This document shows positions 3,369 through 44,347 of a stretch of 44,347 bases of DNA, piece after piece. Position numbers and translations under genes: made by a program. Position 1 is the first letter of the stretch. Each line of letters starts with the position of its first letter. Below the pieces are notes generated by a model. That model was given only the letters and a program-made list of their open reading frames with translations, was not told the DNA's origin and made no database searches. Origin of the DNA: Peptococcaceae bacterium (lineage in GTDB: Bacteria; Bacillota; Peptococcia; Peptococcales; Peptococcaceae); the NCBI GenBank assembly GCA_017399005.1, contig JAFQEO010000019.1:1-44347 (forward strand), given 5' to 3'.

Positions 3369-3442
3369 CGGGGTGTGGCTCAGTTTGGTAGAGTACGTGG
3401 TTTGGGACCATGGGGCCGGGGGTTCGAATCCCTCCACCCCGA
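3369..3442 (+). tRNA. tRNA-Pro (UGG)
   Basis: Cloverleaf with acceptor CGGGGTG/CACCCCG, TTCGAAT in the T loop, and the anticodon loop TTTGGGA giving UGG. The 3' CCA is not encoded. First gene of an eight-tRNA operon. Confidence 0.95.
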
Positions 3443-3478
3443 TACTATTTTTTTTGACGTAAAGCAATGTGTGGTGTT

Positions 3479-3552
3479 GCGGGTGTAGCTCAATGGTAGA
3501 GTTCTGGCCTTCCAAGCCAGCTACGTGGGTTCGATTCCCATCACCCGCTCCA
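3479..3552 (+). tRNA. tRNA-Gly (UCC)
   Basis: Acceptor GCGGGTG/CACCCGC, anticodon stem CTGGC/GCCAG with loop CTTCCAA (UCC), T-loop GTTCGATT, encoded CCA. Confidence 0.95.
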
Positions 3553-3556
3553 ATGT

Positions 3557-3630
3557 GTGCCAGTAGCTCAGCTGGATAGAGCATCGGCCTTCTAAGCCGA
3601 GGGTCGGGGGTTCGAGTCCCTCCTGGCACA
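3557..3630 (+). tRNA. tRNA-Arg (UCU)
   Basis: Acceptor GTGCCAG/CTGGCAC, anticodon stem TCGGC/GCCGA with loop CTTCTAA (UCU), T-loop GTTCGAGT. CCA not encoded. Confidence 0.95.
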
Positions 3631-3645
3631 TGCTTTTTTGAATAT

Positions 3646-3719
3646 GGTGGATGTGGTGAAGTGGCTAACACACCGGATTGTGGCTCCGGCATTCGTGGGT
3701 TCGATCCCCATCATCCACC
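3646..3719 (+). tRNA. tRNA-His (GUG)
   Basis: Anticodon stem CCGGA/TCCGG with loop TTGTGGC (GUG). The acceptor GTGGATG/CATCCAC carries the extra G at -1 opposite C73, the histidine identity pair. CCA not encoded. Confidence 0.95.
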
Positions 3720-3767
3720 CTCTTATTTTTATTCTGGTAGCATCAGGTATGCGGATGTAACCTTCGA

Positions 3768-3842
3768 TGGGGTGTAGCCAAGTGGTAAGGCACGGGACTT
3801 TGACTCCCGCATTCGTAGGTTCGAGCCCTGCCACCCCAGCCA
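3768..3842 (+). tRNA. tRNA-Gln (UUG)
   Basis: Acceptor TGGGGTG/CACCCCA, anticodon stem CGGGA/TCCCG with loop CTTTGAC (UUG), encoded CCA. Confidence 0.95.
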
Positions 3843-3845
3843 TAT

Positions 3846-3918
3846 GCGCTATTAGCTCAGTCGGCAGAGCACCTGACTTTTAATCAGGGTGTCCCGCGTT
3901 CGAGTCGCGGATAGCGCA
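3846..3918 (+). tRNA. tRNA-Lys (UUU)
   Basis: Acceptor GCGCTAT/ATAGCGC, anticodon stem CCTGA/TCAGG with loop CTTTTAA (UUU), T-loop GTTCGAGT. It begins only three bases after the tRNA-Gln CCA. Confidence 0.95.
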
Positions 3919-3932
3919 TCTCTTTTTTATCA

Positions 3933-4016
3933 GCGGGTGTGGCGGAATTGGCAGACGCACCAGACTTAGGATCTGGCGGTTTTACCGTATGGGTTCAAGT
4001 CCCTTCACCCGCACCA
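3933..4016 (+). tRNA. tRNA-Leu (UAG)
   Basis: Acceptor GCGGGTG/CACCCGC, anticodon stem CCAGA/TCTGG with loop CTTAGGA (UAG), and the long variable arm (CGGTTTTACCG) of a class II tRNA. CCA encoded. Confidence 0.95.
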
Positions 4017-4032
4017 GTTTAAAACTTCATAT

Positions 4033-4107
4033 GCGGAAGTGGCTCAGTGGTAGAGCATCGCCTTGCCAAGGCGAGGGTCGCGAGTTCGAATCTCGTCTTC
4101 CGCTCCA
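4033..4107 (+). tRNA. tRNA-Gly (GCC)
   Basis: Acceptor GCGGAAG/CTTCCGC, anticodon stem TCGCC/GGCGA with loop TTGCCAA (GCC), CCA encoded. Second glycine isoacceptor and last gene of the operon. Confidence 0.95.
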
Positions 4108-28684: not shown

Positions 28685-29034
28685 GGGGATGTAATGGTTT
28701 CGACGGGGGATATGCGGTAGCCCGGGAAGCGAGCCAAGGTCGCGCCAGCTTGTAAAACGGTGCACTTAAAATTAAACGCTAAAAATAACAATTTAGCTTT
28801 AGCTGCCTAGTTGCAGTTAACGCTCTGCCTGCTGTGTCTGCGGTGCGGGACAGAGTGTCACTCTAGCGGACTACTGTTTCGCCAGTGCGGGGTAACGAAA
28901 CAGGAAACTTACCTGGCTGGTCAGCAATAATCCTGTTTGTGGGAGTACTGCTGACGAGATGAAATCACAAACTACGCTCGTAGATGCCTGGGGTGTCGGT
29001 CTTTCGGACAGGGGTTCGACTCCCCTCATCTCCA
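28685..29034 (+). ncRNA. ssrA: tmRNA
   Basis: Rescues stalled ribosomes. The tRNA-like ends pair as GGGGATG with CATCTCC, and the T arm reads GGGGTTCGACTCCCC. The 5' part has the typical TAATGGTTTCGACGGGG. A reading frame at 28778-28810 (GCT to TAG) encodes the tag AKNNNLALAA, with the ALAA end that directs proteolysis. CCA is not encoded. About 350 nt, standard for one-piece tmRNA. Confidence 0.97.
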
Positions 29035-29037
29035 TAA

Positions 29038-36618: not shown

Positions 36619-36987
36619 ATGAAAGAAATCAAATTATATGATAGTGAACTGAATATTATGGAATATCTGTGGCGTGTGCAGGAGGCATCGGCAAAAGAGA
36701 TTGCTGCGGAAATGGCAGTGCAGGTTGGCTGGAGCAAAACAACCACTTATACTGTTTTAAAAAAATGCGTGGATAAAGGTGCTGTGGAGCGCAGAGAACC
36801 GGGGTTTCACTGCAAACCGTTAATCAGTCGGGAACAGGTGCAGGAATATGAAACCCGGGAACTGATTGACAAACTGTATGGCGGCTCTGCTGACCGGCTG
36901 GTGGCTTCACTGCTAGGCGGGCAGACATTATCCGGGCAGGAAATCGATAATTTAAAACGGCTGATTGACCGTCTGGAACAGGGGTGA
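36619..36987 (+). CDS. BlaI/MecI/CopY family transcriptional repressor
   Basis: A 122-residue repressor with the penicillinase-repressor winged helix: LYDSELNIMEYLWRVQEASAK-type N terminus, SKTTTYTVLKKCVDKG recognition region and ERREPGFHCKPL wing, then a dimerisation helix. In BlaI-like systems the repressor is cut or inactivated when the adjacent M56 sensor peptidase detects a cell-wall signal. Ribosome site GGGGCGAT. It precedes the M56 gene and probably binds the three dyads upstream. Confidence 0.9.
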   Translation: MKEIKLYDSELNIMEYLWRVQEASAKEIAAEMAVQVGWSKTTTYTVLKKCVDKGAVERREPGFHCKPLISREQVQEYETRELIDKLYGGSADRLVASLLGGQTLSGQEIDNLKRLIDRLEQG

Positions 36988-36992
36988 CCGGC

Positions 36993-38450
36993 ATGACATT
37001 TTTGCAGATAAGTGCAATGGGTGCGGTGCTGACTGGTCTTATTGTTTTGCTGCGTAAAGCCGCAGGGCAGAGGCTGCTGCCGGGCTGTTATCTGGCATTA
37101 TGGGCGCTGGCAGGTGCACGGTTTCTGTTTCCGGTGAATATTTCATCGGCCTTCAGTGTGTATAACCTGTTTGCAATACTGAAACCAGACAGCACAACAG
37201 TTGTTTATGAGCAGATACCAGGCACTGTAAATGGTGCATCGCAGTGGATAGATGACGGCGGTACAGCAACTGCCGGGGGGGCAGGTCTGGACTGGCTTTT
37301 TGTTCTGTGGCTGACCGGTGCGCTTCTCTGTTTTCTGTATATGGTGAGCAGTCACTGGCAGTTTCGCCGATGGTATGCGGCTTCTCTGCCGGTGGAGGAT
37401 AAATTTGTGAAGCACTGGCAGAACCGGCATTCATTGCGCAGAAATTATCAGATTCGAAAGAGCCGGATGGTGCAGACACCGCTGACATACGGGCTGTTCC
37501 GTCCTGTAATTCTGCTTCCGGCTGATAAGGTCATGCTGGAAGAGGAACTGCATCTGGTGCTGCTGCACGAATGGAATCATATCCGTCATCTGGATGTGCT
37601 TTGGCAGTGGGTTCTAGTAATAATCTGCAGTATTCACTGGTTTAATCCGGCGGTGTGGGTGATGCATCGCTTCTGCCGTCAGGATCTGGAACTGTTCTGT
37701 GATGCTGCTACAGCCAGAACGCTGTCAGCGGTTCAGAATCGCAGCTATGCCATGCTGCTTTTACAGCAGGCAGCCAGTGTCAGGCGCCCGGTGCCTGTGT
37801 TCAGTTCTTTCCGGTTTACCGGCTATCAGCGCATGGAGGAGAGGATACAGGTGATTATGAAACCGAAAAAATTCAGCTGGAAGATAGCAGTGATAACCGT
37901 ATGCCTGTTTTGCGCAGGAGGCATCGTATTTGCCACATCAGCACAGGCGGAAGAAAATCATGCGGATGTATGGATGAATGCCAGTCCGGCAGAAGAACAT
38001 GTATGGCCGGTAGCATCAGAAGATGCCAAACTGACTCTGGCCTATGGCACGCGGCAGCATCCGGTGACCGGTGAACTGCATAAGATTGACCATATCTCCA
38101 TTGGCGGGGCTGATGCCGAAGGCAGCGCTATTCTGGCTGCGGATGATGGCGTGGTAAAGGATGCAGGCTATGATGCGCGGAAAGGAAACTACATTCTGAT
38201 TGCTCACGATAACGATACGGAAACCTGTTACTGGCACTGTGATAAACTGCTGGTGGGAATCGGAGGAACAGTTCACGCAGGAGAGGCCGTTGCCACACTG
38301 GGAAAAACCGGGGATGCCACCGGGCCGTGTCTGAGCTTTGCCGTGTATCAGAATGGCAAAGCCTGTGACCCCGTTGCATGGCTGGAAGGCCGGGAAGAAT
38401 CCGAAAGAACCGTGCAGCAGCCGGCAGACGAGCGGGAAACTGAAAAATAG
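36993..38450 (+). CDS. M56 sensor peptidase fused to a degenerate LytM/M23 domain
   Basis: A 485-residue BlaR1-type protein: N-terminal membrane helices (to about 130), a cytoplasmic gluzincin loop with LLHEWNHIRHLD (HExxH, about 192), a further helix near 307-323 ending FATSAQA, then an external domain (about 345-470) resembling LytM/M23 peptidases (YGTRQHPVTGE, AADDGVVKDAGY, GEAVATLGKTGDATGPC). The usual HxH zinc pair is replaced by CLS and the first motif is altered, so this domain is probably not catalytic. It replaces the penicillin-binding sensor of BlaR1. ATG at 36993; GTG 36984 rejected. Coupled to blaI. Confidence 0.85.
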   Translation: MTFLQISAMGAVLTGLIVLLRKAAGQRLLPGCYLALWALAGARFLFPVNISSAFSVYNLFAILKPDSTTVVYEQIPGTVNGASQWIDDGGTATAGGAGLDWLFVLWLTGALLCFLYMVSSHWQFRRWYAASLPVEDKFVKHWQNRHSLRRNYQIRKSRMVQTPLTYGLFRPVILLPADKVMLEEELHLVLLHEWNHIRHLDVLWQWVLVIICSIHWFNPAVWVMHRFCRQDLELFCDAATARTLSAVQNRSYAMLLLQQAASVRRPVPVFSSFRFTGYQRMEERIQVIMKPKKFSWKIAVITVCLFCAGGIVFATSAQAEENHADVWMNASPAEEHVWPVASEDAKLTLAYGTRQHPVTGELHKIDHISIGGADAEGSAILAADDGVVKDAGYDARKGNYILIAHDNDTETCYWHCDKLLVGIGGTVHAGEAVATLGKTGDATGPCLSFAVYQNGKACDPVAWLEGREESERTVQQPADERETEK

Positions 38451-38487: not shown

Positions 38488-38516
38488 TTGACAAAAAATT
38501 TTTCAAATGATACTAT
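38488..38516 (+). promoter_or_regulatory. Promoter of the cobalamin-riboswitch operon
   Basis: TTGACA (38488-38493, consensus) and TACTAT (38511-38516) with a 17-base spacer. Start near 38523, giving an untranslated leader of about 540 nt. Confidence 0.75.
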
Positions 38517-38599
38517 GAAAAACAAATGTATGAAAACAATTTAATATGGCTCCGGCTTTTGTGGCAAATGCGCGACCGGACTTCACAGTTTCAAAAACT

Positions 38600-38870
38600 G
38601 AGGCTATGAGGAAAGACACGCATTCTTGTTCTGCTGAACAAGGGAATCAGGTGAAAGTCCTGAACACGGCCGCAGAATCATCGCTGCGATTATTTCGATG
38701 ATTCTGCGCGCAGTAGCTGTAAGTATGGAGTGCATTCTTTTTCTGCGAAAGCAGGTCATTGGTGAACAACTGAGAAGGCGAAGAATGTGCAATGATATCT
38801 GAATTTCAAACGGATATCGGGACATACAAGTCAGAAGACCTACAAATGGAGATGGACGCAGGTATTTTTG
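38600..38870 (+). promoter_or_regulatory. Cobalamin riboswitch
   Basis: The core is recognisable: GGGAATCAGGTGAAAGTCC (38642-38660), GCAGTAGCTGTAA (38710-38722) and a B12 box AAGTCAGAAGACCTAC (38828-38843). A perfect 13-bp hairpin CGCAGAATCATCG/CGATGATTCTGCG (38671-38708) lies in between, and a CTGC-GAAA-GCAG hairpin is at 38743-38754. The riboswitch binds a cobalamin and, with the downstream terminator, should switch the operon off when B12 is plentiful. Confidence 0.92.
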
Positions 38871-38912
38871 TGATGCTCTGTGTAATATCTCTATGCCTGA
38901 AATGTGTACAGA

Positions 38913-38947
38913 AGCGGTGGCATTTATGCTGTCGCTTTTTGTTTTTT
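38913..38947 (+). terminator. Riboswitch expression-platform terminator
   Basis: AGCGGTGGCAT and ATGCTGTCGCT pair over most of their length with G-U pairs, then TTTTTGTTTTTT. It lies between the B12 box and the first reading frame, fitting a transcriptional OFF switch. The remaining 115 bases to the GTG at 39065 hold only the ribosome site. Confidence 0.8.
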
Positions 38948-39064
38948 GTAAGATAAGTTTTGCTGATTTGTCGGAGAGATTCCCGTTGCCGGACAGCACA
39001 TTCGGCAATGTTTTCCCGTGTGAACGGTTCCATATAGAAAGAACAAGTCAAGGAGGCACAAATC

Positions 39065-42000
39065 GTGAAACAGTTTATGAAAAACAGAAAAGCAATCGCC
39101 CTTGTACTGCTGATTGCCATGATGTTCAGCATCATGCCGACAGCCGTGTGGGCAGAAACAACTGACAACAATCCAGATACAACAACAGCTTATGTGACTA
39201 TTGTAGACCAAGGCATAATTGTTATGGCACACCAGAAGGTGACCGTAACAACGAGCAGTGCTATTATTGATGATTTTTTAAAACAGGCACATGAGGATTC
39301 GTATGAAGACGGTGCTTCAGCCGGATATGCCACTTCTAATGGTTGGCTTAGTAAACTATGGGGTGATACCAGCGGTAATTTTGGTTACTGGCTAGAAAAT
39401 GTACCTGCTAACAGTTTAACAGATAAGGTATCTAATAATGCATATATAGTAGCTGCCATTAATCAACATATATATAGTCATGAGGAACCATGGCGAGACA
39501 CCTACAGCTATTTTAATGACGATACTGCTGTAATTGAAAACGGTCTCGCATTAGAACTTGAATTGCATGGAAGAGAATGGGCTGATCCGTATCCGCTTGC
39601 AGATGCCGTTATCACCATTGACGGTAAAGCAACAGGTTATACTACCGATGAAAACGGCAAAGCGGTAATCGCGTTACCGGAACTGAGCCAGTACGATGAA
39701 AACTGGAAGTTGCTGCCGGAGACACATATTGTTTCCGCCATTGCACCGACAGGAATAACAATTGTTCCACCGGTTTGCGAAGTAACTGTAAAGCCTTATT
39801 TAACAGAAGAGGATATTGCAGCAAATGAGACAGCTGGCAATGCCAGCAAAGTGTCGGCAGCGTTGTCTGCTATTCAGCTAAACAGCCCGTTTGTTGTGAA
39901 ATCTAATGATAACCTGCTGAATACGATTACTTCTCTGGTAAATGATGCTGAAGTGGTGAACGATGATGCAGTTGCGATTACCTTCGACGCAGTGTCCGGT
40001 ATTATTGACAGCAACGGTGTTATCATTGCGGACAGTGAAAAAGGCGCATATTCGGTTCCGTTCCAGCTGACTTGCGGTAATGTAACCAAAACAATCGATG
40101 TTCCGATTATCGTGAACGGTCTTCTGGCTGATAGTGATAAACTGCTGAAAAAGATCGCAGCCGGCTATACAGCAGCCGATAACAAATGGAATGTTATGGA
40201 CATGGGTACCTATACCAGACTGTATGGCACATCCAGCCTGACAGCTGCTGCAAAGCAGAAATACATCAACACCATAATCGAAAACGTACAGAAAGGCAAT
40301 TACGGCGAAAGCGATTATGCGACAGCGGTGATTCTGCCGCTGACTTCTATTGGCGTGGATGCTTCCCGTCTGTATCCGGTAAACAGCAATACACCGGTAA
40401 ATGCACTGACAAAACTGGCGAATACAACACCATACATCAGTGAATGGTCTACGCCATATACTTTAATGGCTTATAAGCAGGGCTATGGTGCAGGTGCTAA
40501 CGAAAAAGAACTGCTGACTGGGTTACTGGCATTACAGAAATCCGATGGCGGCTGGGGCTCTGTTGACCCTACCGGTGAAACACTGGCAGCACTGGCCTTT
40601 TATAAAGGTGATGAAGATGTCGATACTGCAATTAAAGAGGCAGTAGACTATCTGGAAGCACAGATGCGCACCGATGGGGTATATACAGACGGCCGGAACG
40701 GCTACAATGCAAACTCCACTGCAATGGTAGTTATCGGGCTTGCAGCTGTGTATGACACATTAGATTCTGACGAAAAGGCTGTATTTGATAAGTCCGTTGA
40801 AGGCTTATTATTCTTTGCAGTCAATGACAACAGCGGTTTCTGGAAAGCGCCGAATGTAACAACTGTAAATGCGAAAGCTACTGAACAGGGCTTCCGCGCT
40901 TTAATTGCAGCTTCTCAAGTGATGAAAACCAGCAAGGCGTTCAATGTGTATGATTTTAGCGGCAATACATTAACGCCAGGCCGTGCCACCGGTACCGGTG
41001 AGGTATCAAAACCATCGACTCCGTCCGGCAGCAGCAATGTTACCGTAACGGTCAGCATTAAAGGCTTAGACGGCTACTGGCTGAAAGATAAATCGGTAAC
41101 CTTAAAAGATGATGCTACTATGTACTGGGCGCTGGTGGGTGCGATTAAAGGCAGCGGCATTACCCAGACCGGCGCGGCAAACGGCTATGTAAAAGCTATG
41201 ACATACAATGGCAGCGAACTCGGAGAGTTTGATTACGGCCGCAATTCGGGCTGGCTGTATAAAGTAAACAACACACTGCCGCAGGTTGGGCTTTTACAGT
41301 ACACCGTGAAAAACGGCGATAAGATTGAATGGTACTACACCAGAGACTGGACAACCGATTCTCTGGCAGGCGGCCGTGTAAACGATACTGATAAAAAAGC
41401 AGCTGCATCGGTGGATGAACTGCTGGACAAGCTGTTAAAAGATCTGGGCAGTCTGGATGACATCACTGTGGAAGATGCTGAAACGATTGCCGAAATTCGT
41501 AAGGCTTATGATGCTTTAACCGATGAACAGAAAGCGCTGGTAGAAGGTTATGATGACTTAGTGGCAGCAGAGGCTATGCTGGAGGCGTTACTGGCAGAGC
41601 CGGAAGAATTGCCGTTTACGGATACGGATAATCACTGGGCAGCAGGGGCCATTCAGTATGTGTATGAGAACGGGCTGCTGCGCGGTGTATCAGATACAGA
41701 GTTTGCTCCGAATGCAACCTTCAGCCGCGCTATGCTGGTAACAGTGCTGCATCGTCTGGCTGGTTCGCCGGCATCCAGCGGGTATTATCCGTTTGCGGAT
41801 GTGCGTGATACAGCGTGGTATGCAAACCCGGTAGCGTGGGCACATCAGAATAAACTGGCAGGCGGTATAACCGAAACCCGGTATGCGCCGAACAGCCCGA
41901 TTACCCGGGAGCAGCTGGCGGTCATGCTGATGCGCTATGCACAGTATCAGGGCTGCGACACTTCCGACACCATCCGTCTGGTGCATTATAAAGATGCCGA

Positions 42001-42175
42001 CCAGGTGTCCGGCTATGCAGAAACAGCGGTGAAATGGGCGGTATCGACAGGTCTCCTGAAAGGCCGCACTGCAAATGAACTGAAACCGCAGGGCACTGCA
42101 ACGAGAGCAGAGGTAGCGGTTATCCTGCAGCGCTTTCTTGCAATGTACGATTCCGTTGCAGTATCGGATGTGTAA
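39065..42175 (+). CDS. SLH-anchored surface protein with alpha/alpha-barrel and DUF4430 domains (putative corrinoid binder)
   Basis: A 1036-residue secreted protein under the cobalamin riboswitch. Signal peptide 1-30 (cut after AVWA). A DUF4430-like domain lies at about 42-135, a carboxypeptidase-regulatory-like beta domain at 160-240, and an Ig-like domain at 265-350. An alpha/alpha barrel of prenyltransferase/cobalamin-binding type follows at 352-625 (QKSDGGWGSV, NSTAMVVIGLAAV, NAKATEQGFRALIAA). Then a DUF4430 domain (655-760, SGWLYKVNNTLPQVG), a helical linker (785-845) and three SLH repeats (850-1030) that anchor to the cell wall. GTG start after AAGGAGG. Barrel plus DUF4430 mirrors animal intrinsic factor. 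Corrinoid binding is inferred. Confidence 0.87.
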   Translation: MKQFMKNRKAIALVLLIAMMFSIMPTAVWAETTDNNPDTTTAYVTIVDQGIIVMAHQKVTVTTSSAIIDDFLKQAHEDSYEDGASAGYATSNGWLSKLWGDTSGNFGYWLENVPANSLTDKVSNNAYIVAAINQHIYSHEEPWRDTYSYFNDDTAVIENGLALELELHGREWADPYPLADAVITIDGKATGYTTDENGKAVIALPELSQYDENWKLLPETHIVSAIAPTGITIVPPVCEVTVKPYLTEEDIAANETAGNASKVSAALSAIQLNSPFVVKSNDNLLNTITSLVNDAEVVNDDAVAITFDAVSGIIDSNGVIIADSEKGAYSVPFQLTCGNVTKTIDVPIIVNGLLADSDKLLKKIAAGYTAADNKWNVMDMGTYTRLYGTSSLTAAAKQKYINTIIENVQKGNYGESDYATAVILPLTSIGVDASRLYPVNSNTPVNALTKLANTTPYISEWSTPYTLMAYKQGYGAGANEKELLTGLLALQKSDGGWGSVDPTGETLAALAFYKGDEDVDTAIKEAVDYLEAQMRTDGVYTDGRNGYNANSTAMVVIGLAAVYDTLDSDEKAVFDKSVEGLLFFAVNDNSGFWKAPNVTTVNAKATEQGFRALIAASQVMKTSKAFNVYDFSGNTLTPGRATGTGEVSKPSTPSGSSNVTVTVSIKGLDGYWLKDKSVTLKDDATMYWALVGAIKGSGITQTGAANGYVKAMTYNGSELGEFDYGRNSGWLYKVNNTLPQVGLLQYTVKNGDKIEWYYTRDWTTDSLAGGRVNDTDKKAAASVDELLDKLLKDLGSLDDITVEDAETIAEIRKAYDALTDEQKALVEGYDDLVAAEAMLEALLAEPEELPFTDTDNHWAAGAIQYVYENGLLRGVSDTEFAPNATFSRAMLVTVLHRLAGSPASSGYYPFADVRDTAWYANPVAWAHQNKLAGGITETRYAPNSPITREQLAVMLMRYAQYQGCDTSDTIRLVHYKDADQVSGYAETAVKWAVSTGLLKGRTANELKPQGTATRAEVAVILQRFLAMYDSVAVSDV

Positions 42176-42202
42176 CAACATAAAAATTTAGAAATCATTT
42201 CT

Positions 42203-42224
42203 GCGGGGACGGCTCTGTTCCCGC
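42203..42224 (+). other. Intergenic mRNA hairpin
   Basis: GCGGGGA and TTCCCGC form a 7-bp stem with no U-tract after it, so it is more likely an RNA processing or stability element between the first and second genes of the B12 operon than a terminator. Confidence 0.45.
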
Positions 42225-42281
42225 GGGTACATAACCGCATTATGAAAAAATTTTATTTTTACGGAAGAGAGGATATACCGG

Positions 42282-43313
42282 ATGTTCCAATTTCAGAAAA
42301 TAAAACAGATAACAGCAATCATTTTGTGTATTACATTTTTATGCAGTATACCAGTTTCGGCGTATGCTAGCGATACAAAACCGCTTTCGGCGGCAGAGGC
42401 GGCGGAATATGGGAAAATCTGCAGTGCCATTGATGATTTAGCTGTGCAACTTGTAAAAACAACACCGCAGGCAAGGCCGGGCAGCATTGGAGGCGAATGG
42501 CTGATTCTCGGCCTTGCCCGCTCTAATGAGGACGTATCGGCAAAATATTATAATCAGTATTATGCAATGTTGAAAAAACTGGTAAAACAAAAGAAAGGAA
42601 TTCTGCATCAGCGCAAATATACAGAGTATTCCCGTACCATTCTTGCTTTAACGGCTATGGGGAAAAATCCGGCTAAGGTAAATGGATATAACCTGCTGAC
42701 TCCGCTGGGCGATTATAAATCAACAGTACAGCAGGGAGTAAACGGCGCCGTGTTTGCACTGCTGGCACTGGACAGCGGCGACTATCCGGTTCCGAAACAT
42801 AAAACGGCAAAAATAAAGGCAACTCGCAATTTGTATGTGAATTATATTTTAGGAAAAGAGCTTTCCGGCGGTGGATGGGCTTTCAATGGAACTACTGTGG
42901 ATGTGGATATGACGGCGATGGTATTACAGGCGCTGGCACCATATCAAGATAATAAAAAAGTCGGTGCTGCAGTGGACAGGGGCGTTCAGAAACTGTCTGC
43001 CATGCAGAATAAGCAGGGTGGTTTTACCGCATATGGTATCACAAGTGCTGAATCTACAGCACAGGTCATCGTTGCACTTACGGCATTGGGCATAGATTTA
43101 AACGACAAACGGTTTGTAAAGAATGATAACAGCACCGTGGACCATCTGCTGCGCTATTACCAGAAAGGCAAAGGATTTGTGCATACGATTGGCGGAGAAA
43201 CCAATGCTATGACCACAGAGCAGGGGTTTTATGCGCTAGTGGCGGCCGAACGGTTTTATGCCGGGAAGAACAGCCTGTATGATATGACAGCGGAAGTGCA
43301 GATAAAAAAATAA
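42282..43313 (+). CDS. Secreted alpha/alpha-barrel protein, intrinsic-factor alpha-domain-like
   Basis: A 343-residue exported protein with a signal peptide (1-29, cut after SAYA). The rest is an alpha/alpha barrel of the squalene-cyclase / cobalamin-binding class: GGEWLILGLARSNEDV, YSRTILALTAMGKNP, GGWAFNGTTVDVDMTAMVL, QNKQGGFTAYGITSAESTAQ and TNAMTTEQGFYALVAAERF. It has no DUF4430 domain, SLH repeat or lipobox. The following gene supplies DUF4430 alone, so the two may form an intrinsic-factor-like sandwich around a corrinoid. Ribosome site GAGAGGA. Function inferred from domains, riboswitch and neighbours. Confidence 0.82.
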   Translation: MFQFQKIKQITAIILCITFLCSIPVSAYASDTKPLSAAEAAEYGKICSAIDDLAVQLVKTTPQARPGSIGGEWLILGLARSNEDVSAKYYNQYYAMLKKLVKQKKGILHQRKYTEYSRTILALTAMGKNPAKVNGYNLLTPLGDYKSTVQQGVNGAVFALLALDSGDYPVPKHKTAKIKATRNLYVNYILGKELSGGGWAFNGTTVDVDMTAMVLQALAPYQDNKKVGAAVDRGVQKLSAMQNKQGGFTAYGITSAESTAQVIVALTALGIDLNDKRFVKNDNSTVDHLLRYYQKGKGFVHTIGGETNAMTTEQGFYALVAAERFYAGKNSLYDMTAEVQIKK

Positions 43314-43363
43314 AGAGTTTCAGCTTTGCCTGCGAGGAAAGCTGTAAAGAGAGGGAGACAGAT

Positions 43364-43885
43364 ATGATATCGCATATCAAAAAGAAACCGTATTGCAAAG
43401 TGGGGCTGATGGTTGTTTTATTGTTTGTATCCATCCTGTTTAGTGGATGCAGTCAGAATCATCAGATAGCGTTAGAATCTGAAGTGCAGTGCAGTATTTC
43501 CATTTCCTGCAGTACAGCGCTGGAACATGCGGAGCAGTTACCGGACGGTGTATTGCAGATGCTGCCTGAGGATGGCTGGATTCTGGAAGAAATAACTGTG
43601 CCGATACAGGAAGGAGATACCGTATTTGATGTACTGCTGCGTACGGTGCTGGAGAATGATATTCATATGGAATATGTGGATACCCCTGTGTACGATTCTG
43701 CTTATATCGAAGGTATTGCCAATCTGTATGAGTTTGATGCAGGTGAGCAATCCGGCTGGATGTACAGCGTAAACGAGGAGTTCCCCAACTATGGATGTTC
43801 TTCATATCAGGTGAAGGATGGCGATGTTATCTGCTGGGTCTATACCTGCAATCTGGGGACTGATGTAAGGGGAGAAACGATATGA
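43364..43885 (+). CDS. DUF4430 lipoprotein, transcobalamin beta-domain-like
   Basis: A 173-residue lipoprotein: positively charged N terminus, hydrophobic stretch and lipobox LFSGC with Cys29, so it is anchored on the outer face of the cytoplasmic membrane. The remainder is one DUF4430 domain, with VFDVLLRTVLENDIHMEY and the signature SGWMYSVNEEFPNYG then YQVKDGDVICWVYT. This matches the DUF4430 segment of the SLH protein (SGWLYKVN, VKNGDKIEWYYT). Ribosome site GAGAGGGAG. Overlaps the next gene by four bases (ATGA). Probably presents a corrinoid to the transporter. Confidence 0.85.
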   Translation: MISHIKKKPYCKVGLMVVLLFVSILFSGCSQNHQIALESEVQCSISISCSTALEHAEQLPDGVLQMLPEDGWILEEITVPIQEGDTVFDVLLRTVLENDIHMEYVDTPVYDSAYIEGIANLYEFDAGEQSGWMYSVNEEFPNYGCSSYQVKDGDVICWVYTCNLGTDVRGETI

Positions 43886-44347
43886 CCCGGGATGTTTTTT
43901 CCAGTTATCATCCGTTGGTGAATCTTTGCTATTTTGTGCTGGTTTTGCTTTGTACAATGTGTTTCTGGCATCCGGTTATTTTGTTGATTTCTTTTGGTTC
44001 AGCCGCAGCTTATGCCATGCAGCTGAATGATGCGAAAAAAATGAAGCAGCAGGTTATGGGACTGTTGCCTGTAATGCTGATAGCGGCAGTATTAAATCCG
44101 ATGTTCAACCATAAGGGGGCTACAGTGCTGACCTACTTGCCCAGCGGTAATCCGCTGACACTGGAAAGCCTGCTGTATGGTCTGGCTGCAGCTGTTATGC
44201 TGGCAGCAGTAATCCTGTGGTTCGCCTGCTATACAGTGGTGATGACCTCGGATAAGTTTATTTATCTGTTCGGGCGAATCATTCCGGCACTGTCGCTGGT
44301 GTTATCTATGATATTACGGTTTATACCGAGATGTCAGGTGCAGCTGG
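43882..44347 (+). CDS. ECF transporter transmembrane subunit (EcfT/CbiQ-like), partial
   Basis: The first 155 codons of a membrane protein that runs off the window end. The start MTRDVFSSYHPLVNLCYFVL is typical of EcfT/CbiQ proteins (the HP-N motif). Helices lie at about 12-30, 32-46, 60-72, 95-120 and 130-147, and LSMILRFIPRCQVQ is in the region preceding the family's cytoplasmic coupling helices. ECF T subunits couple ATPases to a substrate-binding S component. Its place after the DUF4430 lipoprotein, with coupled translation, suggests a dedicated corrinoid importer; ATPases and S subunit would lie beyond the window. Confidence 0.85.
   Translation, partial: MTRDVFSSYHPLVNLCYFVLVLLCTMCFWHPVILLISFGSAAAYAMQLNDAKKMKQQVMGLLPVMLIAAVLNPMFNHKGATVLTYLPSGNPLTLESLLYGLAAAVMLAAVILWFACYTVVMTSDKFIYLFGRIIPALSLVLSMILRFIPRCQVQL

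Follow-up and report, generated by a model that had tools for sequence, protein, structure and literature searches.

Importers of the ECF type are thought to bind their substrate by the membrane S component alone, and an ECF importer equipped with outer binding proteins would be unusual. Among these transporters, ECF-CbrT of Lactobacillus delbrueckii (PDB 6FNP) is a proven importer of cobalamin and cobinamide (PMC5997447), and reconstructions of gut genomes list CbrUVT as a B12 uptake system (PMC6593275). Bacterial relatives of the animal B12 carriers enter the literature from a different side. In their account of this domain, Burroughs et al. (2007; PMC1796856) assign the beta-grasp domain of transcobalamin to the SLBB superfamily and report Gram-positive surface proteins in which an SLBB domain is joined to toroids; the respective operons encode CbiO-like ATPases and CbiQ-like membrane proteins, and B12 synthesis genes are absent. 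B12 scavenging was predicted for these operons, and the bacterial proteins were proposed to be the source of the animal carriers.

Here we analyzed a stretch of DNA of 44,347 nt (the window), which corresponds to the full length of contig C17 in a Peptococcaceae genome of 2.41 Mb (39 contigs, 99.8% complete). From the riboswitch, gene content, anchors, folds, CbrT identity, co-occurrence and missing synthesis genes, all computed here, we conclude, with a probability of about 0.8, that the end of the window carries a riboswitch-controlled corrinoid (B12) scavenging operon of a B12-auxotrophic Gram-positive gut bacterium, which would combine an SLH-anchored trap, a split carrier and ECF import. 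The features of the operon are the following.

38488-38516, plus strand: sigma-70-type promoter-like site with an extended -10 (consensus scan only; TTGACA-17-TACTAT, 10/12 matches plus TG)
38609-38861, plus strand: cobalamin riboswitch aptamer, RF00174 (cmscan score 48.8 bits, with the gathering score at 31.5; window E = 2.6e-9)
38829-38844, plus strand: B12-box-type motif (perfect pattern match; 0 expected in shuffles)
38910-38948, plus strand: intrinsic terminator-like hairpin with a T run, putative OFF expression platform (scan and RNA folding)
39065-42175, plus strand: SLH-anchored transcobalamin-like protein, 1036 aa (Pfam SLH 4.1e-32, three repeats; DUF4430 5.4e-12), with the toroid at ~40127-41000 (by homology to the 343-aa toroid protein), DUF4430 at ~41186-41341 and SLH from ~41612
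42282-43313, plus strand: secreted stand-alone alpha/alpha-toroid protein, 343 aa (N-terminal hydrophobic signal-like sequence)
43364-43885, plus strand: membrane-anchored stand-alone DUF4430 (beta-grasp) lipoprotein, 173 aa (PF14478 7.8e-21; lipobox LFSGC)
43882-44347, plus strand: EcfT, first ~155 of 297 codons (homology and operon context), the rest lying on contig C4, to C4:569
C4 ~542-2992, after EcfT: fused EcfA-EcfA'-CbrT protein (C4 ORFs)

The original prediction of a promoter and a cobalamin riboswitch followed by four co-directional genes, for an SLH/DUF4430 protein, a toroid protein, a DUF4430 lipoprotein and an ECF T subunit, agrees with these features in every element, down to the overlap of the last two genes, which amounts to 4 bases. 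Purine-rich sites resembling ribosome-binding sites lie upstream of all four genes of the window. EcfT gave no significant Pfam or NCBIfam match of its own. The N-terminal ~350 aa of the SLH protein (39065-40126) have no Pfam match.

The window ends within the EcfT gene, and the last 141 bases of C17 are identical to the first 141 bases of C4, a contig of the same genome. The closest named relative, and the single one recovered in the scan of genome contigs, is L005, a Peptococcaceae MAG obtained from the cecum of a water buffalo. In this congener, the entire operon lies on one contig, in unchanged order, downstream of a riboswitch. The toroid proteins of the two genomes are 87% identical; the L005 homolog of the SLH protein is shorter (745 aa) and lacks most of the N-terminal ~350-aa region. 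Elsewhere in the window there are a cluster of eight tRNA genes (3369-4104), a tmRNA (28685-29037) and, at 36619-38450, a gene for a BlaI-type repressor followed by one for a BlaR1-like M56 protein with a C-terminal M23 peptidase domain, a combination that is an unusual sensor fusion.

The operon shares with those of Burroughs et al. the toroid-fused DUF4430 surface protein, a second SLBB paralog, an ABC ATPase and a CbiQ-like protein, in a host without B12 synthesis, and is a variant of the class predicted, according to that account, in 2007 (PMC1796856). The original prediction, which largely holds and is supported here by the importer set, the CbrT identity, the folds and the missing synthesis genes, is accordingly less novel than it had seemed. 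Unlike in the operons as described there, however, the S component is of the CbrT type and forms a single protein with both ATPases, and a toroid and a DUF4430 domain each have a gene of their own; furthermore, a cobalamin riboswitch heads the operon, a feature of which no mention was found in the main text of that paper. The CbrT S component, the riboswitch control and the split toroid and beta genes beside the transporter are the additions made here. In the literature searched, which did not extend to the 2009 ECF survey (Rodionov), no report of CbrT together with a riboswitch and a split toroid/DUF4430 pair was found, nor was any experiment on such an operon or on the bacterial outer proteins.

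The aptamer scores above the curated gathering score of the RF00174 covariance model and is the only match to this family in the 2.41-Mb genome, so that the single cobalamin riboswitch of this bacterium is the one at the operon head. The terminator-like hairpin follows ~50 nt past the aptamer, and the same hairpin is found in L005 and in the related locus L039. Its position is consistent with an OFF switch, the direction of which we infer from the sequence.

The search for an S component and two EcfA ATPases beyond the end of the window, which the original prediction had proposed, recovered both, fused on C4 and intact in L005. In the fused protein, the two ECF ATPase domains are followed by the S component at the C terminus. 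When compared with all PDB chains, the S domain gave a sole significant match, to CbrT of ECF-CbrT (6FNP_A, 5e-10 with a single sequence); the S-domain profile matched 6FNP_A at 1.3e-21, and the next two S components, RibU among them, reached 0.0035 and 0.012. Sequence similarity, then, places the domain in the CbrT family above other S components, and an S component clearly dedicated to another substrate, which would have spoken against corrinoid import, was not seen: among the solved S components, the B12-specific CbrT is the closest. With a dedicated T subunit, two ATPases and an S component in one operon (C4, L005), the importer is of group I. It resembles ECF-CbrT (PDB 6FNP, PMC5997447) and the predicted CbrUVT group in its CbrT-type S component, EcfT and two ATPases. 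By contrast, CbrT of L. delbrueckii shares its ECF module with other S components, whereas here T and AA' are dedicated; also unlike in ECF-CbrT, A, A' and S form one polypeptide, and outer capture proteins are encoded in the same operon.

The same genome encodes a second, smaller DUF4430 protein at C22:35077-35755 (L074 6751-7762), the gene of which overlaps that of a 195-aa S component with CbrT as its sole PDB match (3.7e-11). This pair lies without a cobalamin riboswitch, and a shared ecfA1-ecfA2-ecfT module is located elsewhere, at C2; the pair may represent a second, group-II-style corrinoid route.

The genome encodes a MetH-like methionine synthase, and neither of the synthesis proteins CbiD and CobS was found in the 99.8% complete assembly. 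Because MetH is present and CbiD and CobS are absent, the bacterium appears, as judged from its gene content, to be unable to make vitamin B12 and would need an external supply. Many cobamides occur in the intestine, and the compound imported could be a B12 precursor or another cobamide (cobinamide, pseudocobalamin) instead of B12 itself, a possibility that we consider rather improbable yet the most serious of the alternatives. Cobinamide is indeed also taken up by ECF-CbrT (PMC5997447), but CobS, required for the conversion of cobinamide to cobalamin, is among the proteins not found in the genome, so that the cell could do little with an incomplete corrinoid; import of complete cobamides is compatible with the gene content, but this is a question of specificity rather than a different system. 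Uptake of B12 by the operon described here is similar to the BtuB/BtuG and BtuFCD routes in that surface capture would be followed by ATP-driven import. It differs from both, as initially proposed, in that the operon contains no TonB receptor and no BtuF. In the rest of the genome, there are two FecCD-type ABC importers, the binding proteins of which fall far under the BtuF cut-off and which have no riboswitch; hence, no BtuF-type protein with BtuC/BtuD under B12 control was detected.

Sequence and profile searches of the PDB did not by themselves assign the outer proteins to the B12 carriers. Queried as single sequences, the toroid and DUF4430 proteins yielded cyclases alone or no informative match; the toroid profile retrieved cyclases and alpha-2-macroglobulin-type toroids, with transcobalamin and intrinsic factor absent among the matches listed; and the DUF4430 profile gave no significant match to PDB. 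Structural models, in contrast to these searches, point to the carriers when compared by Foldseek. The AF2 model of the 343-aa toroid protein, which by sequence is related to the C-terminal domains of squalene cyclases, has a pLDDT of 93.6, and in Foldseek transcobalamin chains occupy ranks 2-6 and 8-13 of a list that also contains terpene cyclases and a glucuronyl hydrolase. For the toroid and DUF4430 domains of the SLH protein modeled together (40127-41401; pLDDT 84.8), Foldseek lists nothing but chains of transcobalamin, haptocorrin and intrinsic factor at ranks 1-15 (5.6e-11 to 3.5e-8), before an unrelated fold at 1.8e-5. The overall rmsd is high (~18), which suggests that the angle between the two domains differs in the model. 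Comparison with VIA-align gave Z of ~19-22, with rankings saturated by the common toroid, which terpene cyclases, glycosidases and epimerases also have, and therefore did not separate those folds from transcobalamin and intrinsic factor: for the toroid alone, these two were absent among the matches listed, and for the two-domain model, intrinsic factor was tied with unrelated folds, at an rmsd of ~17 that likewise suggests another hinge angle between the domains. The proposal that the domains are those of intrinsic factor and transcobalamin is supported by the Foldseek search with the two-domain model, in which the three carriers head the list, and the SLH protein has the architecture of these carriers, a toroid and then a DUF4430 beta-grasp domain in one chain.

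The animal carriers (transcobalamin, haptocorrin and intrinsic factor) and the bacterial protein have in common the alpha/alpha toroid with a C-terminal beta-grasp domain. They differ in that the identity is only ~14%, the bacterial protein has an SLH anchor, a second copy is split, and B12 binding is predicted; moreover, the proteins described here would feed an ECF importer, whereas the animal carriers are taken up by receptor endocytosis. Given that squalene-hopene cyclases are the best Pfam and sequence-profile matches of the toroid, the toroid proteins could instead be secreted terpene-cyclase-like enzymes that are under B12 control and unrelated to uptake. The cyclase DxDD acid motif, however, is not retained: in all 21 toroid sequences, the last D is replaced, by M, I, V, L or T. 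Furthermore, the toroid proteins are exported, and their association with CbrT is strict (see below), which makes an enzymatic role very improbable.

We compared 19 loci around toroid homologs, that of L005 and 18 others from related genomes. The arrangement that recurs begins with the riboswitch and continues with one or more large wall proteins containing a toroid and/or DUF4430 and often SLH, a DUF4430 protein anchored in the membrane by its N terminus, EcfT, the ATPases (fused or adjacent) and CbrT. The loci vary in how the same modules are split or fused, and in some of them the stand-alone toroid also carries SLH. In each of the 12 loci checked, the beta (DUF4430) protein has an N-terminal anchor, namely, a hydrophobic segment and in some cases a lipobox; its gene usually adjoins that of EcfT. 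In two loci, L030 (8880-9609) and L046 (2929-3420), a tandem pair of cobalamin riboswitches precedes an operon of this kind.

Of 31 genomes of the class, 17 have both DUF4430 and CbrT and the other 14 have neither, and toroid homologs were found in 16 of the 17 and in none of the 14; the genomes are related, so that nominal p-values are optimistic and independence is overstated. The system is present in 15 of the 26 genera. A same-strand cobalamin riboswitch lies at most 13 kb upstream of 28 of the 44 DUF4430 sites, compared with ~0.3 expected (a chance of ~0.7% each); six of the 17 genomes have no riboswitch upstream of DUF4430, several of these sites being at contig edges. DUF4430 on its own is no proof of a link to B12 because it is present also in Lactococcus lactis, in which no match to RF00174 was detected.

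These patterns bear on whether the outer proteins belong to corrinoid uptake at all. The operon could encode a corrinoid importer whose outer proteins bind another ligand, such as host glycans or B12-loaded host carriers, or only position the transporter: the toroid fold resembles also glycosidases and epimerases, and polymers are frequent ligands of SLH and Ig-like surface proteins. The occurrence of toroid and DUF4430 proteins nevertheless follows that of CbrT from genome to genome, and the combination of the two domains specifically retrieves B12 carriers, so we regard this alternative as unlikely.

For corrinoid scavenging through all three outer proteins, we infer the following route. When an adenosylcobalamin-type corrinoid is scarce, the leader would be read through the terminator, and the three exported proteins would be made along with the complete ECF importer. 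The SLH protein would act as a wall-held, transcobalamin-like trap, with the corrinoid bound between toroid and beta-grasp domain as in transcobalamin and intrinsic factor. The stand-alone toroid protein and the DUF4430 lipoprotein, each of which lacks the domain of the other, are encoded next to EcfT; they probably make up a second transcobalamin that is split in two and may close on the corrinoid in trans at the membrane. This split carrier would then hand the corrinoid to the CbrT-type S domain, and EcfT with the two fused ATPase domains would drive import. The outer proteins are not obviously needed, because CbrT binds B12 directly with nanomolar affinity. We give even odds to the specific scheme of an ECF importer fed by extracellular binding proteins, namely, a wall trap and a split transcobalamin assembled in trans, both of them present-day relatives of the protein ancestral to animal intrinsic factor.

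Roughly half of the genomes sampled in the class have a counterpart of this operon, and together these operons suggest that many anaerobic Gram-positive bacteria employ outer carriers resembling those of humans for B12 import. If so, this would be a further surface strategy in the competition for B12 in the gut, beside BtuB/BtuG and BtuFCD. The proposal, put forward in 2007 in the account cited above, that intrinsic factor and transcobalamin reached animals from Gram-positive bacteria becomes directly testable by biochemistry on the bacterial proteins.
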